Assembly (NCBI RefSeq): GCF_001625215.2
Contig: NC_030387.2
Span: 31,767,606-31,831,605, forward strand
DNA: 64,000 nucleotides
Source: Daucus carota subsp. sativus
Taxonomy: Eukaryota > Streptophyta > Magnoliopsida > Apiales > Apiaceae
Reading direction: 5' to 3'
Shown: one piece after another, positions 1 through 30,091 of the stretch
Layout of the letters: each line of letters opens with the position of its first letter
How positions within the stretch are numbered: position 1 is the first letter of the stretch
Program-made: the position numbers and the translations under genes
The notes under the pieces: generated by a model
Database searches by the model: none
Told to the model about the DNA's origin: nothing
The model's input: only the letters and a program-made list of their open reading frames with translations

Positions 1-505
1 AAAAATAAAGGGGTAGGCGAAAGGTTACATCAATACAAACTATCAAACATATTTCATGGAGAAACCAATATAAGAAAAATAAAGCACAACTTACTCCAAG
101 AGCTATACAAACAAAAGCACCAGTAAAATAGAAAGTAAAGACATAGAAATGTGAAGGAAATACAGGCAGCAAGTAAAATGAGTTACAAGCAGCAAAGCGA
201 ATCCCATCAATTAATATCGCACTACATTTTAGAACAGGCCTCTGCAAACTTTATTCTCACAGAGCCTTAGTACTAGTGCTTGTACACACTACACACCCCA
301 AGGGTATATTTAATCATATCCAACTAAAAAAATACATAACAAACAAATTCATGGATAGATAGTTCTTCAAAAAAACAGTTTTATCCACTGCAAAAATAAT
401 ATACTGCTATTCCTGATGAAATTTTCGTACTACCAAACATGCATCATGCTTCAAAAGTTACATTCTATCACATATATAAGGATTTAAAACTGTTAGCTAA
501 GAATG
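1..505. other. downstream part of the snoRNA transcript, no gene seen
   Basis: AT-rich sequence after the last snoRNA of the cluster. I see no further C/D boxes or open frame. The transcript end or further units may lie beyond the left edge. Confidence 0.4.
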
Positions 506-596
506 GCCTCAGAATTGCAGAATTAGTCAACAAGTGGCTTAAAAAGCCATTCAGTCCCGAAAGATGGTGTATTTTAATTCTGATTTCCTCACTGGC
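506..596 (-). ncRNA. C/D box snoRNA, snoR39BY-like (copy 1)
   Basis: Read on the minus strand this has a box C variant (GTGAGGA), a D' box CTGA after a guide, an internal TGGCTT/AAGCCA hairpin, and a box D CTGA. The D' guide CACCATCTTTCGGG is complementary to the conserved 25S rRNA segment CCCGAAAGATGGTG. The box D guide ATTCTGCAATT is complementary to 5.8S rRNA AATTGCAGAAT. By the five-nucleotide rule the predicted 2'-O-methylated bases are the G of CCCG in 25S and the G of AATTG in 5.8S. Yeast snR39b modifies the same 25S region and human SNORD96 the same 5.8S region (family knowledge). The ends pair as GCC/GGC. A second copy at 1530-1621 keeps both guides and changes both strands of the terminal stem. 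The snoR39BY name is recalled, not searched. Confidence 0.85.
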
Positions 597-704
597 ACCA
601 CATTGAATAGAAAGTTTAATTTAAAACATACATACAATTAATAAAAGCTTTAGTGAGTGAAAAACAAATGACAGATATCTCAAATCATATTTGCATCATC
701 AATG

Positions 705-796
705 ATTGTGCTCAGACAGCCAAGGGGTTGTCTTCAGAACTGGGGGATTAAACCCAGATCAGAAACTCTAGTCCACATAAGCCTCATCACCGCAAT
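705..796 (-). ncRNA. C/D box snoRNA guiding 25S rRNA (copy 1)
   Basis: Minus strand: perfect box C TGATGA, D' CTGA after the guide GGACTAGAGT, a CTGGG/CCCAG hairpin, a C'-like TGAAGA, then guide CCCTTGGCTGT and box D CTGA. The ends pair as ATTG/CAAT. The guides match the conserved 25S rRNA segments ACTCTAGTCC and ACAGCCAAGGG, which by memory lie within about 60 nt of each other in domain V. So this RNA probably directs two nearby 2'-O-methylations. The orthologue name is not recognised with certainty. It sits between the other two RNAs of the cluster, in the same order as in copy 2. Confidence 0.85.
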
Positions 797-887
797 AATC
801 AATATCTAGACATTAACACATACTAACACTCAAAAGCTTAAGAAACAAGAGAAACTATTGAAGAAATATAATCCAAGTCTGAAATGT

Positions 888-976
888 GCATGTAATCTCA
901 TGGCAGGTCCCAAATGATAATTGCAGACATTATGCTTCACCAAGGCAATAGGATATGAAAACACTTTCAGTGCTCT
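888..976 (-). ncRNA. candidate H/ACA-type hairpin RNA (copy 1)
   Basis: A conserved block shared with 1794-1875. On the minus strand it folds as a hairpin with a TTTCAT/ATGAGA basal stem and a long internal loop, followed by ACA exactly three nucleotides before the proposed 3' end. An H-box-like AGAGCA lies just upstream (971-976). A full H/ACA RNA would need a second hairpin further upstream. Sequence there is not shared between the copies, so the call is tentative. Its conservation next to two snoRNAs is the main support. Confidence 0.4.
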
Positions 977-1529
977 TGACAGATAGCAATCAGTTCAACC
1001 ACTATCGCATCAAAGTGAAGTTTGTGACCATATTTGATCAATCATGTATTACAAATATTAATAAAATTCACCAAAATTTTGAAGAGCTTTATGTAGAAAA
1101 CAAGTTACCAACATATACATCAAATGATATAAGATTGAACTCAAAATTTTGATAATCACATTAAAATAGCGTCTTCCTTACACAAGAACAGTTCAGCTTG
1201 AGACACCATTACATCAAGTCTTTGCTTAATTGATTACATTTCCACCATATATTCTATCAATAATCTTTTAAACAACTCAAACACAAGTGACAACCAACAA
1301 ACTAACCTTGTATTCATTAATATATACAATAAATCAACTGCGAGGTAAATTTAATAAAATCAACAAAACAGCACTCAGAACAATACGGACAAAAAGTAAA
1401 CTATTTCATTCATACCGATTCCCAGTTGCTTCAGTTGCTTAATCGCCATCCACATCAGCCGCATTCTATATATAAATAAAAAATCAAAGACAAGAAGCAC
1501 ACAAAACAGTCAGTTATCAGCAATTAAAC

Positions 1530-1621
1530 GCTTCAGAATTGCAGAATTAGTCAACAAGCGGCTTAAACAAGCCATTCAGTCCCGAAAGATGGTGTATTTT
1601 AATTCTAATTTCCTCATTAGC
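1530..1621 (-). ncRNA. C/D box snoRNA, snoR39BY-like (copy 2)
   Basis: Second copy of the snoRNA at 506-596. Both guides (25S CCCGAAAGATGGTG and 5.8S AATTGCAGAAT) and the D' and D boxes are unchanged. Box C reads ATGAGGA. The terminal stem is GCT/AGC where copy 1 has GCC/GGC, a compensatory change that shows the stem is under selection. Changes elsewhere fall mainly in the spacer between D' and C'. Confidence 0.85.
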
Positions 1622-1656
1622 ACCAAATCAAATACACCATATAATTCATTTTAAAA

Positions 1657-1751
1657 AATGCTCAGACAGCCAAGGGGTTGTCTACAGAACCCAGGGAGAT
1701 TAAGCCCCAAGATTCAGAAACTCTAGTCCACATAAGCCTCATCACCACATT
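1657..1751 (-). ncRNA. C/D box snoRNA guiding 25S rRNA (copy 2)
   Basis: Second copy of the snoRNA at 705-796. TGATGA, both guide segments (GGACTAGAGT and CCCTTGGCTGT) and both CTGA boxes are kept. The D'-C' spacer has diverged. The terminal stem is AATG/CATT in place of ATTG/CAAT, so pairing is kept although the bases differ. Confidence 0.85.
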
Positions 1752-1793
1752 AATCAATCAAAAATATTGCAAAACAAACTCTAAATAATGTAG

Positions 1794-1875
1794 AATTGTA
1801 ATTCTCATGGCAAGTCCCAAATGGTAATTGCAGATGCTGCATCACCACAAGGCAATAGGATATGAGAATGCCTGC
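1794..1875 (-). ncRNA. candidate H/ACA-type hairpin RNA (copy 2)
   Basis: Second copy of the block at 888-976. The basal stem is longer here (ATTCTCAT/ATGAGAAT) and the 3' side again runs into ACA three nucleotides from the end. No convincing H box was found, so it may be a single-hairpin RNA or part of a longer one. It is the first RNA after the promoter. Confidence 0.4.
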
Positions 1876-2079
1876 AATTAGGCTCGGCTCTTTTCAAAGC
1901 CAAGCAGACAGGCTTGCTGTGTGACGATTTGTAGGGCAATTGGGTTTTGCGAATACTGATTCGGTTCGCCCCAATTTCATATTAGCCTGAATCGTCAGTA
2001 AAAACCAAACAACATGATTTACAAAATTATTTACGGTGTGTTGAGAAAGAAAAAGAGTCGCGGAGGCGGCCAGGGGAAG

Positions 2080-2216
2080 ATTTGATAAACCCTGAAGGGT
2101 TGTTATGTTTATATAGGGCCACCTGTTTTTCAGATTTAGGGTTTTAGCAGATCTTCCCATCTTCGACTTGTTTCCGAAGCCCATTTGAATCGGACCCCGT
2201 TTGACGCTGCCCTACA
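2080..2216 (-). promoter_or_regulatory. telo-box / site II promoter of the snoRNA cluster
   Basis: On the minus strand, in order: a site II element TGGGCT (2178-2183), a telo-box AAACCCTAA (2136-2144) and a TATA box TATATAA (2109-2115). A pyrimidine-rich leader follows, with a possible 5' splice site just after it. This combination is typical of plant ribosomal-protein and snoRNA genes. Transcription would start near 2080 and run leftward through both snoRNA sets. A possible small exon at about 1412-1467 (AG before, GTATGA after) hints at a spliced host transcript with little coding capacity. Confidence 0.75.
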
Positions 2217-2669: not shown

Positions 2670-4946
2670 TGTGGCGCCCTCCAAACCCGGGTCAGAAGTT
2701 TGGGGTCCACATCTTAACATAAACCTGTAATTAATGATATAATATATATAGTGACCCATAACTGTCTTTGGATCGCAACAGGTTAAAGTATAAAACAAGC
2801 CACAACACAACTTTAATTATTACAAACCCAAATCCCAAAATAAAAACTTAAATCTTACAAGCTTACACGTCATTTGTGTCTCATTATTCAAACTAATACA
2901 TATATCAAAGTCAAGCGCTGCCGATAGCTCTCTCCATCTCTCAGCCTGGAATCCTGGCCTTACCACTAGCCTGAGTATCATCGTTACCAACCTTCTCTGC
3001 TTTCACTGGAAAGAACATAGAGTATCGCAAGAGTGAGCTGACAAGCTCAACAAGTATAACAATATCCATTTAAACATTTATCAAAAGATGATGGAAATCA
3101 ATATTTAATAGAACCAACCTCAATGTCAAAGTTTCTTTTTAGAGTATCAATTAGAATTGGATATTAAATTTTATTTTTAAAAAACCAAAGGTTAGGCTGC
3201 TGATCAGTCAGACACTAACCCCGAGCAGGCCCCGCCATGCTCGTTTACTGGATCCAAGGCACACATTGGCCTAAAGTGACCACTCATCTGGTCTGACCAT
3301 TCATTTGGTCCATTTAAGAAAAACTATCCAATTCTATTATAAATCAGGATGAATAACAATATAATGCAATAAACAGAATCATTAAGAACATGATTAAATT
3401 TTGGAGCAGAAACAGAATTCATTTCAGCAATATCTTTAAGATATTCTACAATAAGAATCGGGAATAATTCCACGAGTCAAAGGATCAGATATAGCATATT
3501 TGGATTTCAAGTGAAACAATAGTCATGGTCTGTATGAAAGAAGGTTTCTGGTTTTATTAAAGAATTCACATGTCAAAAGGGTGTTTTCAAGTCCAAAGAA
3601 ATTAGGTTATTGAAAAGGAATCACAATTGTGGGGTGTATGGTATTCCAGGTATGATTGACTTCCAGTCAATTGGTTTGGATATCAAAGGTGTGTCAGAAC
3701 ATTGAAATAAGGTTTATATGGTAGTTATCCAAAAATCTCAAGGTTTGAAGGTTTACAATTGAATAAGGTTTCCAAAATAGATATCAAAGAATCAAGTTAA
3801 TGGCTCAAGAATCAATGAATGAATAGTTCAAGTGATAGTCAAAGAATCTGGTTGATGGTTTAAGAATCGATGAATTAAACAATTCATGATATGGCTCAAT
3901 AAGTGTCATGAGTGAATTAGAAAGCTAGCAAAGCAATCACATCAAGGATCATATATATATAATTGAAGGAAAGTATCAAGGAAACTTGCCTTATACTGAC
4001 GATTTCAAATTTCAATAGCTCTTGCTCGATAAACTATACTATATCCACTTGCTTTCCCTTTTATTACGCCTCGCTTCTCTGATGATTCTGCACTGATTCT
4101 GATGTTGGATTATGATTCTACTTGTTAAAACCTTCAATTTGAGTCCTTGAACGCCAAAATCCGAGTCCGATAACGCGTCCAAATCCTCGTTTGAATCTCA
4201 AGAACACGAAGAACTCTCTCGGGAATTTCTCGGTTTTAACTGGTTTTATGATTTTCGTAATGAAATAAAGTACGGTTAAGAATATTTATACTTATGAATA
4301 ATTAGTACCCCTTTGGATCATATATGGCATGAAAATACAATGTTTAATAGCTTTATACTAATAAAACGGGTCCAATCGGTACCGGTTTTTGAGATAATCA
4401 TCAAAACGGGGCTTTTAATCCGTCATTAGTATGCGGGTCCCACCGTCATTATGACAAGATAAGGATAAGTATAAAATATCTAGTTTCACGTTTATCGATA
4501 CAACCGGATAATTATCGAATACCGAAAGATTCCGCCGGACCGGCTTCGGAACAAACCGTACTCCGGATCGAAAAAGTCAAAACATGAAAAATGTCCGGAA
4601 TGTTCAAATTAGGCTAAAAGTGAATTTTGTTGAAATTTTCGGGAAGTAAAATCTCGGTACCGTTGCAGGTTGACGGTTTTCGAAGAATCCAAATAATTAA
4701 TAATTAATTGAAATATACATAATTAAATCCGTAAATCCAATATAAAATCATCTGACAATACATAAATCGATATGAAAATATCTAAATAAACTATATTTTG
4801 TACTGAACATATAAAAATTGATATTCCACAAATTTAATCAAAAATACATAACTAAATTAATAGAACAGGAACCAATTAATTCACAGAAATTCATATAAAA
4901 TTCATATAATATTCATTAATCATTCAAATCATTACACTGATAATCC
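2670..4946 (-). repeat. 3' LTR of the Ty3/gypsy element
   Basis: About 2277 bp aligned to 10244-12520 with no length difference and about four base differences counted by eye. The outer end carries the TG..CA-type terminus beside TCACC. Confidence 0.9.
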
Positions 4947-7900
4947 CAATATACTGGTGATCGACATTTGCGTCCGTAAAGAGCTTCATAAGGAGGCATC
5001 CCAATGCTTGCGTGATAACTATTGTTGTATGCAAATTCCACTAAAGGTAGATGCTCGTCCCAATTACCTTTGAAATCGATTGCACAAACACGTAGCATGT
5101 CCTCGATCGTCTGAATAGTTCTCTCGCTTTGGCCGTCTGTTTGTGGATGATATGCCGTACTCATATTCAATTTAGTGCCCAAGCATTCCTGAAAACTTTT
5201 CCAAAATCTCGAATTAAATCTTGGATCTCTATCTGACACAATGGATACGGGGACTCCATGACGAACTACAATCTCTTTCAGGTACATATGGACTAATTTA
5301 TCCAAAGAGAATCTCTCATTAATCGGAAGAAAATGCGCTGACTTGGTTAGTCTATCCACTATAACCCAAATGGCATCATGGTTTGCTTTAGTCCTTGGTA
5401 ATCCTACAATAAAATCCATAGCAATATGTTCCCACTTCCATTCTGGAATCTCTAAAGGTTGCAATAATCCACTTGGTCTTTGGTGTTCTGCTTTCACTCT
5501 TTGACACGTATAACATTTACTTACCCATTCTGCAATTTCTCTTTTCATGTCTGGCCACCAATAGTTCTCCTTTAAATCTCTATACATCTTAGTGCTGCCT
5601 GGATGAATTGAATACTTAGAATTGTGTGCTTCCTGCAAGATATCATTCTTTAATTCTGTTACCGGTGGAATCCATATCCTGGAAGAAAACCTAAGAATCC
5701 CTTGATCATCTTTCTGTGTACATAACTCTTCTCCCACTAACTTGTTTACATCCTGATACATTACCTCTTCCTGACACTTCTTAATCTTTTCTAATAGCTC
5801 TGGTTGGAAGGTCATGGTATACATTGCTATCTTTGATGGTTCATGAATTCTTACTTCAATTTCCAATTTTTGGAATTCCTTATATAACTCCTCTGGCACC
5901 GTCAATACATTTAATCTTTCCTTTCTACTTAAAGCATCCGCTACAACATTGGCTTTTCCTGGATGATACTTAATCGTACAATCATAATCCTTAATCAACT
6001 CTAACCATCTTCTTTGTCTCATGTTCAACTCCTTCTGGGTAAAGATGTACTTTAAACTTTTATGATCTGTATAAATCTCACATTTTTCTCCGTACAAATA
6101 ATGTCTCCATATTTTTAATGCAAATACAATAGCTGCTAACTCCAGGTCATGAGTGGGGTACTTCTGTTCATGAGGTTTAAGTTGTCTCGACGCATACGCA
6201 ATAACTTTATCATGTTGCATCAATACACATCCTAATCCTTTATACGAGGCATCACTATAAATCACAAAATTCCCTTGATCATCTGGAAGGGACAATACTG
6301 GTGCTGACACTAATCTCTTCTTCAACTCCTGAAAACTTTCCTCACACTTCTCATTCCATATGAACTTCTCATTCTTTCTAGTTAACTTGGTCAGTGGGGT
6401 TGCAATTCTTGAGAAATCCTGTACAAACCTTCTATAATAACCTGCTAACCCCAAGAAACTTCTGATCTCTGTGGGGGTCTTTGGTCTTTCCCAATTCATT
6501 ATAGCTTCAATCTTCACTGGATCTACCTTGATTCCTTCACGACTCACTATGTGTCCTAGAAATTGAACTTCTTGTAACCAAAATTCACATTTAGAAAACT
6601 TTGCATACAACTTCTCCTTTCTTAATATTTCTAAGGCTGTTCTTAAATGTTCAGCATGCTCCTCAGCTGTCTTAGAATATATCAGAATATCATCTATAAA
6701 AACAATCACAAACTTGTCCAAATACTTCTTAAAGACTCTATTCATTAAATCCATAAAAGCTGCTGGTGCATTCGTTAATCCAAAAGCCATTACTAAAAAT
6801 TCATAATGACCGTACCTTGTTCTAAAAGCTGTTTTAGGTATATCTTCAGATTTGATTTTGAGCTGATGGTATCCCGACCTAAGGTCAATCTTAGAAAAAT
6901 ACTCTGCTCCTTTCAACTGGTCAAACAAGTCGTCAATACGAGGTAAAGGATATTTATTCTTGATGGTAAGCTTATTAAGCTCTCTGTAATCTATACATAA
7001 CCTCATACTTCCATCTTTCTTCTTCACAAACAACACTGGTGCTCCCCATGGGGATACACTAGGTCTAATCACTCCTTTTTCCAATAACTCTTGTAATTGT
7101 TTTGCCAATTCTTTCATCTCTACTGGTGCCATCCTATACGGGGCTTTGGATATTGGCTCCGTTCCAGGTGCTAAGTCAATTGCAAATTCTATCTCTCTAT
7201 CTGGGGGAAGTCCTGGTAACTTATCCGGAAACACATCTGGAAATTCATTCACTACAGGGATATTTTCAAGTTTTACTGGTTCCTGACTTTTATCAATTAC
7301 ATAAGCAATATAGGCTTCGCATCCTTGTCGTAACATTCTCTTTGTTTGGATCATGGTTAAGAACTTATTTACTTGCTTTTGTCCTCTAAAAGTTATTACC
7401 TCGTCGTCTGGTGTCATTAATATTACTTTCTTATTTTTACAATCTATCTGCGCACTATGTTTAGACAACCAATCCATCCCTAAAATTACATCAAACTCCC
7501 CCAACTTGAAAGGTATCAAGTCGGCACAAAACTTATTTCCTAAAATCTCAATTTCACAATCAGGGCAAACTCGATTAACAGAGATACGATCCTGATTAGC
7601 TAGTTCTACATTCATAACCTCATTCAACAATTCAACAGGACAATTCAACTTATCAACAAAAGCTTGAGAAATGAATGATCTAGTGGCTCCAGAATCAATT
7701 AACACCTTGGCATTTATAGAATTTACATTAAGCGTACCTGTCACCACATCGGCATCCTGAATAGCATCTTTCACTGACATATCAAAGACTCTTGCCCTAG
7801 GAGGTTCGTTCACTTCTGGAACAGTTCCCATGATTCTAAGTGCATTGCTAACAGAGGCTGGTGTCTTGCAGTCCTTAGCCATATGTCCTGGCTTTCCACA

Positions 7901-8974
7901 TTTAAAACATGTATATCCTATGGCTGGAGTCTTACTTGTTGAGCCTCTATTGGTCTGATCCTTTATTGCTGGCTGGTTCTGACATTCTCTAGAGTAGTGT
8001 CCTTTCTGGTTGCATTTAAAACATACCACATTCAGTTTGTTACATACTCCTCCATGTCTCTTGCCACACGTTTGACATTCCGGCATTGAAGACCTTTGTT
8101 GATTGGCCTGACTTCCCGTAAGAAAACGTCCTCCTTGTCCACCACTGCCTATTCTCTTAAAATTAGGATTTCCTCCTGCTTGAAACTTCCCTTTCTTCTG
8201 GAACCTCCCTTGATGAGAGGATCCTCCTCTATTGTCTGGCTTTCTCTTCTTATCCTCCTTAGACTTCTGAAACAACTCATTCTCAGCCTCCGCAATCATT
8301 GCCTTCTCAACCACTGCCGCATACGTTTCTAATTGCAAAATAGCTAGCTTGCTCCTAATCCAAGGCTTCAGACCTTGTTGGAATCTTTTTGCTTTCTGCC
8401 TATCTGTCTCTACATAAGTTGGCACAAACCTAGCCAATTCCGCAAACTTATTCTCATATTCAACCACCGACATATTTCCTTGTTTCAGCTCTAAAAAGTT
8501 CAACTCCATTTGATCTTGAAGAAACCTAGGAAAATACTTCTCTAAAAACAATTCCTTAAACCTCTCCCACGTCATCTCAACTGTACCTTCCATATTCTTC
8601 ACAGATTCCCACCAATACGTTGCTTCATTCTTTAAGTAGTGACTAGCAAACTTTGTTTTCTGGTCCTCACTTGCTGGAACTAATTCAAAACACTTTTCCA
8701 TTTCTTTTAGCCATATTTGGGCTGCAACAGGATCTGCCGAGCCCTTAAACTCTGGAGGATTAACTGCCTGAAAAGTTTTAAAAGTTACCCTAGGATTCTC
8801 TTGATGTTGCTGTTGTCGGGTAAGATGAGCAGTTTGCTGAGCCAAAATTTGAATTAACTGGGCCACAGCAGGATCTACTGGGCCTATGTTGACATTCTGG
8901 TTATCATTGTTATCATTGATGCTGTTGGTGCCTTCAGGATCACTGTTGGCACGAGTATGTCTTGTTGGAGGCAT
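4947..8974 (-). pseudogene. gag-pol region of the LTR element (fossil)
   Basis: A long gag-pol frame. In order it shows a retrotransposon gag capsid domain, CCHC zinc knuckles ([14 protein letters not shown] and [14 protein letters not shown]), an aspartic protease ([10 protein letters not shown]), reverse transcriptase ([10 protein letters not shown]), RNase H ([11 protein letters not shown]), and an integrase with an HHCC zinc finger and DDE core. Gag and pol are in one frame, as is usual for this lineage. The element is classed as broken. No repair is considered here. Confidence 0.9.
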
Positions 8975-9452
8975 TCTGTAAAGAAGAAACAATTTACTTA
9001 GTCGTTTTAAATCAAATTCTCTTTTTATAGAAGGTTTTTAAGAAAACAGAATTATACATTTTTGAAAACATTTTTGAGATTGTTTAACTAAATAAATTGC
9101 ATGCTTCTTTACAGAATGTAAAACATTGAAAGAAAGATTGTAATACTATCACAAGAGTTTATGATTGGTACTGAAAGTAAAGTAAAATAAAACAAGTGCG
9201 ATAAAGTAAAGGACAAGACTGAAAAGTAAAAGATGCTGATATATATAAGTCAGTGCTGGAGATACAAGCGTCAAGCGCTTTATCAAAAGTAAGGTATAAC
9301 AACAGCAACAGCAAGACTATCATCTAGTCAGCTCGGCTAGTCTATATACATGACAAAATCTGCTGACCTGATACAACTACTCACTACACACTGCATCATA
9401 CACACTACTCACTATATTACTAACCATCTCCAACACATGATATACTCCAGAC

Positions 9453-19808: not shown

Positions 19809-21828
19809 TCAATCATCATAGTGCCTGCGGTTGTGGTGCTGGCGGTATTTCTTTTTCTCATCATCATCATCGTCGTCGTCGTCATTGTCACCCTGCCAAT
19901 TTAAAATACGCAGCACGATCAGATGTTTAAAAAAATAAATACCTTATACAGGACAACAATTCAAAAATTGTAATACTACTACAATCCCAATTCAGATCTC
20001 TGACTCTATCATCTACAAACCATTTCAATTCAACAGCATAATCATAATTGGGGGGAAAACTGCTCTACCCTATGTCCTATCTATGGCTTACTTACAAGCT
20101 ATGCCATTTCAGTATTAGCGACCCAAGGAAATCAAAATTACTTTAAAACATGCTTAAACTAAGAGCAACTCAGAGCTTGAAGCAAAATTTCATCTTAAAT
20201 TCATACTGTACGTTTCAATTACACAAAAACTTGATACATAGCTTAGGCCTTCAGGAAATTTTTGTTTTTAAAAGCTGAACCCCAATTGCTACATCATTTT
20301 GTCCATAAATGGCAAAAAATGGCAATGCGTACACCACATTGAAAGCAAATTGAAAAAGTAGGACAAAACTAGATTCCGACAATTTTTCCAACATTTCTAA
20401 CTTAAGACTATTTTTCTGACTTTGGCTTATTTAAGAACAGAAAAATCAGGGGAAGTCCTCCAGCAACATATCAATAAGGTTTTCTCTTCCTTTCTAGTTC
20501 ATACTCTTCTTTCCTTTAACTCATAGCTATCCTTTTTGTGTATGTTGCTATACGAAAATCTATAGGATATAATCGATATGTGTTTCGTTGTTAAATCGAG
20601 AAATACAACATAATTTAAGAGGTTTGCACAACCCAGAAGTACAAGACAATAGTCAAGCCTACGTATCAATATAATCCTCATACTATCAAGTCCAATGGTA
20701 ATTAGCTATATCTCATTTTAAAAAGCAGTTGTTGGTGCCAAAATAAATCAATGCTGCGTGTGAGTCCAATGCCAATGCATCATAGCCATGACCATTGCTA
20801 GTTTTTGGAACCACAAACTAACTTTTGGTGCTAATTAGAACTTGTGCTTCAATGCTTGTTTCTAAACTAGCTTTAAATGAACTAGAATATTTAGTTTCTA
20901 GTGGTTAAGTGGCAACAAAACTATAACCATAGATGGTGCTCAGGTGCGATAGATAAAATATAAAGATTAACTTACAAAATAATCAATCCAATGCATAGCT
21001 AGAGTTATAGCAAGATTTATTGAGAATGTAAAAGGGCTGATAATGTATAAAACTCACATATTTCTTGTGACCATATCTCTTCTTTTTCTCATCATCACTG
21101 TCATCATCACCACCGCGCCTCTCATAGCTAGGCTTCCTATACTCCGATTCCTCGGATCGCCCGTATCCGGATCCTCCATACCCTTCACTCACACGAGATT
21201 CATGGCCCCCATACTCAGTCCTCTCGGACCTCCCACCATAACCCGACCCGTATTCAGAACCATGCTGCTCATGCCCACTCTTCCTCCCATACCCAGAGCC
21301 ATACTCGTCATCATCATTCTTCCTCCCATAACCCGACCCGACTTGTTCATGATGTCCATACCCACCTCCACCCGACCCATGATGCCCGCCTCCACCCGAC
21401 CCATACCCACCACCACCAGATCCATACCCGCCACCACCACCCGACCCATACTCGCTGTCATGACCCGACTTCCTCCCATACCCACCAGATCCACCTCCAC
21501 CATACTCACTCTCATCAACACCACCACCAGAAGCACCGGGTCGAGAACCGGGTCGGGTCGTGGGTCGGTTATAGCTCTTGTACTCATCATCAACAGCATC
21601 ACTCCCATAAGCAGAAGGCTTAGCTTGAGTAGAATACTGAGGGCGATTGTAATCAAACCCACCACCAGAACCCGAAGAATTCGCGCGGTAGCAAGTCTCT
21701 TCAGACGGCGGCAAAGGGCGGCCGTAAGTCAAATGAATATCATAACCGCCACCGTACGGCGTCGGATCGTACTCGTCGAAATCGTCGACTTCGTCCTCAC
21801 CGTGATGGCCTTTGGGATAGTACGACAT
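19809..21828 (-). CDS. glycine-rich disordered protein, PLDRP1-like
   Basis: Two coding exons on the minus strand, 21058-21828 and 19809-19892, joined in phase 0; 284 residues. The N-terminus MSYYPKGHHGEDEVDDFDEY, then DPTPYGGGYDIHLTYGRPLPPSEETCY, matches the Arabidopsis At5g39570 family (PLD-regulated protein 1). Those are plant-specific, intrinsically disordered proteins linked to RNA binding and stress. The middle is Gly/Tyr-rich with repeated SEYGSGYG and YGRKSGH units. The C-terminus alternates acidic runs and basic, His-rich patches. The second exon has eight Asp in a row, then EKKKYRQHHNRRHYDD. No catalytic domain. The 1.16-kb intron seems empty. Start chosen as the first Met before the conserved VDDFDEYDPTPY. 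Confidence 0.88.
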
Positions 21829-23060
21829 CGTTTTGTATGTTTGTTTGTTGTAGTATTTGGATCTGAGAGTGACAAATGTGTGTGACGATATTTTGGGCTT
21901 TTATAGTGAGAATTTGTGGTGTCCGATAAGTGTCGGTAACGCGTGGAGGAGAGAGAGTGAAATGTTTGATTATTTGAATTCGGATCCTCTTTTCCTTTTT
22001 AAATGGTCTTTATGAGACAAATTCGGATCGACTTGTGGTTTTGCATTTTTACGTCTCTACTTTTTCAATAAATGTAAGAATTTATGATGACATGGAAATT
22101 AGGGTAATGTAAATGAACAAATAAATAAATAAGGGTTGAGGCCACTTGTCTCGACTTGCCTCATATCGAGTTTCTACGAGTTCTTCAATTTAAGTATTTG
22201 AGAATATTATGTATCCTAAAAATGGTTTTCGATTTTTATTTCAAATCAGAATGGACAATATTCCAAGTAGTTGATTGATTATATTCATATTAATAATAAA
22301 ATCAATCATACACAAGTATATGTAAATCACCCCAATTAAAAACGATCATTCACTGATCATGTCATATGGACAAACGGGAACTGTTTAGGTAAGCCCCATG
22401 TAGGTCATGGGTAAGGTATATTAATATTGGGGGTCTTCACAGAAACAGCCTCTCTGCTTTAAGCGCAGAGCAGACCCTGCTCTAAACAGGATATACAGTA
22501 TGTTTGGTTTGGTAAACAGGATATACAGTATGTTTGGTTTGGTTTATACATTGCTCTTATTGGTCGGGAAGGAGATACCTACATCTAAAACAAATGGTTA
22601 AATAACTGGTTAGAACGATAAGATGTGTAGTATAGAATTTTTGGAAAGAGCCAAATCGAATATAAAAAGATAAAAAAGGATGTTCACAATTTCACATAGC
22701 TCTTCACAGTTCACAGGTACAGTTTCCTGCTGCATCACATTTATGAACTGAGACTGCAATGATAGTGTACTTCACTTGGCAGCTTACAGGGAGCAGCGAA
22801 TGCTATTTTACATTCAAATATCCACGAAATACAATTTCCATACTAAATTGTCATTGATCAACGAAACAATAAAAGATTTTACAGACCAGGTCACTCTATT
22901 TTTTTATACACAAATTTTGTCAACAACAAACAAATCTTCGATAACATCTCCATTCATGAACAAATTTACTGTTAAAACTTGCACACTCGCGAAACTAACA
23001 CAACCACCACTCAGAAAATTGACATATGGAGAAGCACCAGTAAAAGTGAATATTCAGAAC
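21829..23060. other. intergenic between PLDRP1-like promoter and VTI11 3' end
   Basis: The proximal part is the promoter of the PLDRP1-like gene. At 22486-22547 a 31-bp unit (AAACAGGATATACAGTATG core) is repeated twice in tandem. Otherwise nothing notable. Confidence 0.45.
22486..22547 (+). repeat. 31-bp tandem repeat, two copies
   Basis: Two adjacent identical copies of a unit containing AAACAGGATATACAGTATG followed by TTTGGTTTGGT. Perfect identity suggests a recent duplication. Confidence 0.85.
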
Positions 23061-28141: not shown

Positions 28142-28861
28142 TACTTTTTACTTAGACGAAAAATTTTGATTGGTGAAAATTTTTGTGCATGCAGGAGCCG
28201 TCATTATTACTGGAACGGGAACCAAAAGAATACACTACTTACTTTATTAAAAAGTGATTATTAGTATTTGCTCATGGGCACACAGTAGAAAGTCCGTATT
28301 AATAATGTGCAAGAGTTGCCCGAGTCTCTTTCAGGCTTTCAGTTTCATCTCCTGCACACATCATGGTGAATCCTTTCTTGGTTTATCTGGTATACGTTGT
28401 ACACAATAGAAAGTGTACAATTAGTCGCTGTCTGGAACCAAGTATTGGATTTACGCGCATAGAAACAAGCTGCAAAATTTAAAATACGGCATAATCAAGT
28501 GTAAGCAGTGCACTGGCATGATAATACTTCTCTCTTAGTAGAGAAACAGATGGAAGCAATGCACTGTACTCTTTGGATTGACCAAAATTACATTTTTTAT
28601 TATGTAAATTGAAGAGAAACTTACAAGTGGTCTAACATAACTTCATTATAATTATAAATATAAAATGAATGAGGAGAAATGAACAAGCAGTAAAGACCTA
28701 TTCAACACTCATTGCTTGGTTGATAGGATCTTTATTTTTCTGCGACTATATATATAAATCCATGCATTGTTAACTCCAGTATATCACAAGTAAAGAAACA
28801 TAGTATAGCAAGAACAAGAAAAACCAAGTTGAGTACTGAGCATAAACATTGAGAAAAAATA
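28142..28861 (+). promoter_or_regulatory. upstream region of the AP2/ERF gene
   Basis: A TATA box (TATATATATAAAT) lies near 28747-28759, about 100 bp before the start codon, so the 5' UTR would be roughly 70-80 nt. The MITE ends about 600 bp upstream of the TATA box. No further elements are assigned. Confidence 0.5.
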
Positions 28862-30091
28862 ATGGGTAGGAAGAGAAAGGCTGGAGAAGCTACTGATGAC
28901 CAAGATAGAAGCTCTGGTGAAGCAGACATGGCTTGGGATAAAATGGTTAAGGATGCAGCAGCAGCTTCTGCGGTGCTAAGTGGAGCACGGGGTGGCAGGA
29001 AGCGTTTCATTGGGGTTAGACAGAGGCCATCAGGACGGTGGGTGGCTGAAATCAAGGATACGATTCAGAAGATTAGAGTGTGGTTAGGAACTTTTGATAC
29101 AGCTGAGGAAGCAGCAAGAGCTTATGATGAAGCTGCTTGCTTGCTTCGTGGGGCGAATACTAGGACAAACTTTTGGCCTTGTTCTCAATCCTCATCCTCA
29201 GCTCCTGCCCTTCCACCAAAAATTTCAAACATTCTTCTTCACAGGCTCAAAGCCAGAAATAACTCTTTAGCTGCCTCATCCAACTCTCCGGTCCCTGTGA
29301 ACCATGAAGAGAAGGCTCAACAAGGATATGAGGAGGAGGTGACTGAATTTTCAGATGCCCAATTCACTGATTTTCTGAATGATATGGAAGACTATATCCC
29401 CATCAACGAAATGCTTAACAATGCTGGTGCAAGTACTGGTGAACACACAAACACCATTGAATACACTTGTACTAGTTTTGACTCGTGTCTAACAGATCAG
29501 AACTTGAGTCCCCAGGATCAAGGGAGAGACTTTGATTGGGTGCATAATTGGACTGATCACTCAGAACAATCCTCTGGTGGGCAGTGCTCAAGTGGCGAGG
29601 AATATGTTGAACCTGATTTTGAAGAAGATGAAGGAACTGAACTATGTGCCACTGATTTCCAATTTGTTGATGAACTGGGATCGACTTACTGCTCCCCTTT
29701 CGAGATCACGGAAGAGATAGCATTGCCTATTGAGCAAGCAGTATGTGATGGTGAACCGACGATGATCAGTGAGGCTATGAGAAGGATGAAATATGAAAGA
29801 AAGTTCTCAGCTTCTCTCTATGCATTCAATGGCATAACAGAGTGCTTGAAGTTTAAGCTTAAATCAGCAAATGCCACACATAAAGTTGGATCAGATCAGC
29901 TGAGCAAACTTCGAAATGCATGTAACAAGAACCAACAGGATCAGAAGGAAGCTGAAGAAGAGAGAGTCAAGACACCAGAGGAAGAACTGGAAGCATCACC
30001 ATATATGGAATCACCGTTTCATAGCAATGAAAATGAACTGTCACTGTGGAGCTCTCTTGATCTTCAGCCCATATGCTTTGTTAATTATTAA
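28862..30091 (+). CDS. AP2/ERF transcription factor, RAP2-11/ERN1-like
   Basis: Nuclear DNA-binding protein of 409 residues in one exon. A basic N-terminus (MGRKRKAGE) precedes one AP2/ERF domain at about residues 48-107. It reads [20 protein letters not shown], then [35 protein letters not shown], with the conserved DNA-contacting Arg and Trp residues and the YRG- and RAYD-type elements. Alongside RAP2-11 and ERN1 the [19 protein letters not shown] block points to this subgroup. The long C-terminal half is acidic ([20 protein letters not shown], then [11 protein letters not shown]) and probably activates transcription. A family-like patch [14 protein letters not shown] lies near residue 315. 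RAP2-11 acts in low-potassium responses and ERN1 in nodulation, but the role here cannot be read from sequence. The protein is longer than RAP2-11. Confidence 0.9.

Follow-up and report, generated by a model that had tools for sequence, protein, structure and literature searches.

U17/snR30 is an RNA that is required for ribosome building in yeast and animals. The yeast form, snR30, has a 5′, an internal and a 3′ hairpin, and its sites in 18S ribosomal RNA (rRNA), rm1 and rm2, lie at positions 801-806 and 836-841 (PMC9176245); the letters used here for these sites, GGAAUA and UGGUUU, were taken from printed primers. A C-terminal motif of yeast Utp23, PNPLSVKKKK, binds snR30 (PMC9176245), and a structure places this motif at the junction of snR30 and expansion segment 6 (ES6) of 18S rRNA (PMC12095548). 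For plants, section 10 of PMC8351944 states that no U17/snR30 could be found in A. thaliana and raises the possibility that an independent pathway evolved. The U17/snR30 table in PMC7601244, in which the members listed are nearly identical to the consensus, has no plant entry. No report of a plant U17/snR30 was found in the literature searched, including a search by sequence string; primary U17 papers were outside that scope. Here we describe a cluster of three small nucleolar RNAs (snoRNAs), designated A, B and C, on the minus strand of a 64,000-nucleotide (nt) stretch of the carrot genome (the window, positions 31767606-31831605 of contig C7). Judging from sequence and predicted structure, we lean towards the view that C represents the plant U17/snR30 that has been missing, its m1 and m2 motifs being adjusted to plant ES6, and that it is carried in polycistronic, tandemly duplicated snoRNA clusters.

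The genome searched was the 441-Mb assembly of 11 contigs, to which C1 and C4-C7 belong. The unit at 1998-1528 of the window is called promoter-proximal and that at 963-504 downstream, both on the minus strand. Searches with DNA queries located three C loci in the genome, two in the window and one at C4:49.57 Mb. The parts of C in the window are as follows.

1794-1998, minus strand: C, promoter-proximal copy; candidate plant U17/snR30, H/ACA type, about 205 nt, ends inferred, from folds and alignment with the paralogue
1922-1997, minus strand: 5′ hairpin of C, closing stem UGACGAUU/AAUCGUCA; holds four of the five double changes
1915-1920, minus strand: H-box candidate, ACAGCA here and AAATCG in the aligned columns of the C4 copy
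1870-1913, minus strand: internal hairpin of C, a predicted fold
1855-1863, minus strand: m1-like motif AUAUCCUAU, complementary to ES6 AUGGGAUA
1807-1813, minus strand: m2-like motif UUGCCAU, its GCCA complementary to ES6 UGGC
1797-1799, minus strand: ACA box; ACA follows the closing stem in all three copies
888-963, minus strand: C, downstream copy, limited to the 3′ hairpin region; m1-like motif 956-948, m2-like motif 906-900, ACA 893-891

In its predicted folds C is an H/ACA RNA and not a box C/D RNA. A 5′, an internal and a 3′ hairpin were predicted in two of the three copies (promoter-proximal and C4), and in the promoter-proximal copy the 3′ hairpin is closed by AUUCUCAU/AUGAGAAU and followed by UUACA. 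The C4 paralogue shares this plan and adjoins a copy of A, with no B match between them. When the promoter-proximal and C4 copies were aligned, the downstream copy being excluded, 93.5% of 93 cells were paired and 5 of 47 pairs had changed on both sides. Five double changes were reached by 12 of 500 shuffles, and slid versions of the alignment gave 0 or 1. The internal hairpins of these two copies have their position in common but not their sequence. The letters of the 5′ pocket also differ between them; in the 3′ pocket a single column does. The preliminary description of this locus had ended the cluster at 1875; the promoter-proximal C extends to 1998, and the stronger covariation is that of its 5′ hairpin with the C4 paralogue, beyond that end.

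We then compared the base of the 3′ pocket with the plant's own ES6 in a register preset by yeast rm1 and rm2. C had been picked in the preliminary description for its conservation and not for ES6 pairing. The ES6 fragment at C5:18.50 Mb reads GGGAUA and UGGCCU at the places of rm1 and rm2, with a spacing of 28 nt as against 29 nt in yeast. The m1 of C pairs with all six rm1 positions (one by G-U) and with two more, and its m2 pairs with four of the six rm2 positions, for a total of 8 + 4 base pairs (bp). The stacking sum was -19.6 for C with ES6 compared with -16.9 for yeast, the Turner stacking table being used for this and all later energies. In the fixed register, 40 of 100,000 shuffled pockets reached the fit of C by energy and 459 of 400,000 by pair count. 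C also resembles U17/snR30 (SNORA73) in having, like the yeast RNA, an internal hairpin within an H/ACA plan, in pairing with both ES6 sites at the base of the 3′ pocket, in its length of about 205 nt (207 nt for human U17) and in the distance from motif to motif, 41 nt compared with 43 nt in yeast snR30 by our own count. It differs from U17/snR30 in its place in a polycistronic-looking plant cluster.

Taken by itself, pairing of this kind is common. ES6 pairing at the yeast energy level occurred at 536 sites in 298,820 strand-bases, many of them stronger than C, and 671 of 1000 shuffled pockets found a basal-type pairing of 12 bp somewhere in the 18S fragments. Pairing alone says little and the conjunction of features says more: when a closing stem of 5 bp or longer at the edges of the motifs and an ACA beginning no more than 11 nt away were required in addition to yeast-level ES6 pairing, the same 298,820 strand-bases yielded the three C copies and no other site (five rows, corresponding to three copies, with one searched stretch overlapping the window).

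The count of 671 in 1000 shuffled pockets weighs against identifying C as U17/snR30, and so do the following observations. Its motifs do not have the consensus letters (m1 AUAUCCUAU as opposed to AUAUUCCUA, m2 UUGCCAU as opposed to AAACCAU), and two m2 positions are left unpaired. C had no Rfam match, SNORA73 included, in searches with 4 kb and with 251 nt, both at E 10. The H-box consensus is ANANNA, which ACAGCA of the promoter-proximal copy fits and AAATCG of the C4 copy does so imperfectly. The three 3′ hairpins alone contain one double change, and 383 of 500 shuffles were as good. The candidate is known from one genome only, and its 3′ pocket also fits a canonical pseudouridine target, considered below. 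Partner swaps gave a divided result. Plant m1 set on yeast rm1 lost one pair, and two were lost with animal m2 on plant rm2, but none when animal m1 was set on plant rm1 (6/6) or plant m2 on yeast rm2 (4/6). Since two of the four swaps lose no pairs, co-evolution of C with ES6 is supported only moderately. C would be an RNA that works like U17/snR30, and we regard membership of the family as likely; the claim is worded as "works like" because the listed U17 members are near-identical to the consensus and the letters of C are not.

We infer that C is transcribed, processed, bound by protein and active in 18S maturation. In its 3′ pocket the two basal sides, UAUCCUAU and GCCA, would pair with AUGGGAUA and UGGC in ES6 of 18S rRNA, and the rRNA between the two sites would fold into a hairpin of its own. 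Such pairing may hold this part of the small subunit apart in early assembly, with no uridine positioned for modification.

The main alternative is that C is an ordinary pseudouridylation guide, which we consider possible but doubtful. According to this explanation the pocket at the 3′ side base-pairs through its distal halves with 18S CAGGUC-U-G-UGAUG, and the U between them, which we take to be yeast Psi1415 with snR83 as its guide, would be the target of modification. The distal pairing amounts to 6 + 5 bp in all three C copies at the intact 18S site, whose flank was entered by hand for the scoring. At that one site 31 of 400,000 shuffles (7.75e-5) were as good by pair count; by this measure the distal fit is rarer than the ES6 fit, a further point against the U17/snR30 assignment. 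The best distal score in the fragments was 12; of 3000 shuffles about 2.6% attained it, and 6.9% attained 11. Both variable pocket columns are changes from U to C facing G, by which the distal pairing is kept and the energies are raised to -14.2 and -14.3. However, the distal site came from scanning and was not set in advance. Four of the 11 distal pairs in the promoter-proximal copy are G-U, with an energy of -11.5, and in an energy control carried out on that copy only, 490 of 3000 shuffled pockets did at least as well somewhere in 2,651 nt. The three C copies agree at six basal columns, a constancy that a guide would not need. The distance from pocket to ACA is 17, 16 and 17 nt in the three copies as compared with the usual 14-16 nt in H/ACA guides, and the third hairpin of C is left unexplained. 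The likeness to yeast snR83 concerns a possible distal pairing of C at the 18S site that snR83 modifies.

It is unlikely that C is an H/ACA RNA with another rRNA target or none, such as an orphan, a small Cajal body RNA or a guide for small nuclear RNA (snRNA). Both targets proposed above are putative, and the scan covered rRNA alone, with about half of 18S and under one third of 25S of this plant; 18S and 25S were represented by fragments only, with 40 of 106 candidates scored in one search. Against it, C has two fits to rRNA, one of them in a preset register. We give very little weight to a dual mode, in which the same 3′ pocket would pair basally with ES6 for assembly and distally to modify the 18S uridine taken to be Psi1415. 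The preliminary description implied that C is a box C/D snoRNA, which we reject as extremely improbable: the promoter-proximal copy has a C-box-like GTGATGC, but the corresponding letters are GTGAAGC and GTGTAGC in the other two, this stretch lies within the apical stem, the folds have the H/ACA plan and no C/D family reached its threshold.

If C is the plant U17/snR30, a plant candidate that fits ES6 would argue against a separate plant pathway. It would also explain the retention of the UTP23 sensor motif in the genome. The Pfam model of that motif scored 27.4 bits at both C1:34.32 and C6:20.68 Mb (cut-off 15) and had a weak match of 20.9 bits at C1:50.17 Mb. The first two motifs read GPNPLSCKKKK and represent two UTP23-like genes. 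An exon about 4 kb upstream of the C6 motif on the same strand matched the Fcf1 PIN family (E 4.9e-11). Among pieces of the UTP23-like exons submitted to Pfam, the sensor motif was found in two of four (both sensor exons) and PIN in one of three; the other four gave nothing. These matches show that the sequence motif of the UTP23 partner is kept in the genome, which does not by itself imply that C is its ligand. C provides an exact sequence for deletion, crosslinking or mutation in a laboratory plant.

The cluster in which C lies is ordinary, as is its duplication, and A and B are routine snoRNAs. Their copies in the window are as follows.

504-598, minus strand: A, downstream copy; box C/D, RF00055 (SNORD96), 61.9 bits, gathering score 43
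1528-1623, minus strand: A, promoter-proximal copy; RF00055, 62.9 bits, guides as in the downstream copy
704-800, minus strand: B, downstream copy; box C/D, RF00333 (snoZ157/R69/R10), 67.8 bits, gathering score 55
1654-1754, minus strand: B, promoter-proximal copy; RF00333, 55.3 bits, gathering score 55

Six collinear pairs of direct repeats join 495-961 to 1519-1868 at 85-96% identity, with spacings of 1025, 1024, 955, 950, 907 and 907. These bear out the earlier proposal that the order A-B-C is tandemly duplicated. A duplicated cluster of three snoRNAs stands, with A and B of the C/D type and C of the H/ACA type in place of three C/D RNAs. The proposed check with Rfam covariance models on the minus strand was also positive, A and B reaching their thresholds in both units. 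The statement that both copies are under selection holds for A and B but is overstated for the downstream C. That copy retains the 3′ pocket, but its 5′ half could not be aligned with the 5′ hairpin, and alone its lowest-energy fold is another one; it is possibly decaying.

The RF00055 model found three copies of A above cut-off in the genome, two in the window and one on C4. In all three, the guide beside the D box has an 11-nt match to the genome's own 5.8S rRNA, the guide beside D′ has a 14-nt match to its own 25S rRNA after one unmatched base, and the fifth base is G at both target matches. The Arabidopsis sites listed for SnoR39BY are 5.8S G79 and 25S G814 (Table 1 of PMC8053127). The two guides of A fit these two sites, and the window copies show no notable difference from SnoR39BY or SNORD96. 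A is probably the counterpart of Arabidopsis SnoR39BY, and would direct 2′-O-methylation at two Gs, one each in 5.8S and 25S, equivalent to G79 and G814 as judged from the matching sites. The covariation reported earlier for its terminal stem (GCC/GGC to GCT/AGC) was confirmed, column pair 12-100 being C-G, U-A and C-G in the three genome copies; the compensatory change concerns a single pair (C-G to U-A). Comparison of the internal stem with the C4 copy gave two further compensatory pairs, and two other pairs each had one unpaired cell. The C4 copy of A (C4:49.57 Mb, locus positions 3664-3759, minus strand) has the C box GGAGGA where the window copies have TGAGGA, and for this reason may be weakened.

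For B, three of the four RF00333 matches in the genome were above cut-off, both window copies being at or over 55 bits. B resembles snoZ157/R69/R10 in its family match, and its guide regions are near-identical across four full copies. It is read as a guide of the snoZ157 type; its matches in the rRNA fragments scanned were at most 7 nt long and confirmed no target. Pair counts used four of five copies, a partial B-like copy at C7:37.15 Mb (second unit) being excluded. The covariation described for its stem (ATTG/CAAT to AATG/CATT) proved to be an artefact of register, since the 3′ strands sit two alignment columns apart. In a shared register the inner stem shows a one-sided change, TGC/GCA to TGT/GCA.

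Upstream of the cluster lies a block of promoter-like motifs.

2109-2183, minus strand: promoter-like block; TGGGCT at 2183-2178, telo box AAACCCTA at 2144-2137, TATATAA at 2115-2109, consensus matches only

In a motif scan TGGGCT, AAACCCTA and TATATAA stood in an order that suits a start on the minus strand; we take AAACCCTA to be the telo box and the TGGGCT type to be site II. Upstream of the C4 cluster there are TGGGCC and TATATAA, and a telo box in the opposite orientation follows downstream of the TATA. Between the two units of the window the scan found TATA-like strings but no AAACCCTA or TGGGCY, which fits one precursor. The block at 2183-2109 would drive a minus-strand precursor of the order C-B-A-C-B-A, to be cut into the individual snoRNAs. 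Near it, at 2357-2391, there is a second telo box (2364-2357, minus strand) together with TGGGCT on the plus strand, perhaps belonging to a divergent gene.

Other features were noted in the remainder of the window. A 1373-amino-acid open frame at 4916-9037 (minus strand) appears by eye to be the polyprotein of a Ty3/gypsy-type retrotransposon about 1 kb from the snoRNA promoter. It is flanked by repeats with the same consensus (3277-3310/10851-10884 and 4889-4926/12463-12500), 7.57 kb apart, which are probable long terminal repeats. A glycine-rich open frame of 305 amino acids at 20983-21900 (minus strand) matched no Pfam family at E 0.001. At 3699-3878 there are short direct repeats, each about 40 nt long, with spacings of 55-56, and an open frame of 412 amino acids at 28853-30091 (plus strand) contains an AP2 domain (57.6 bits, cut-off 33.3).
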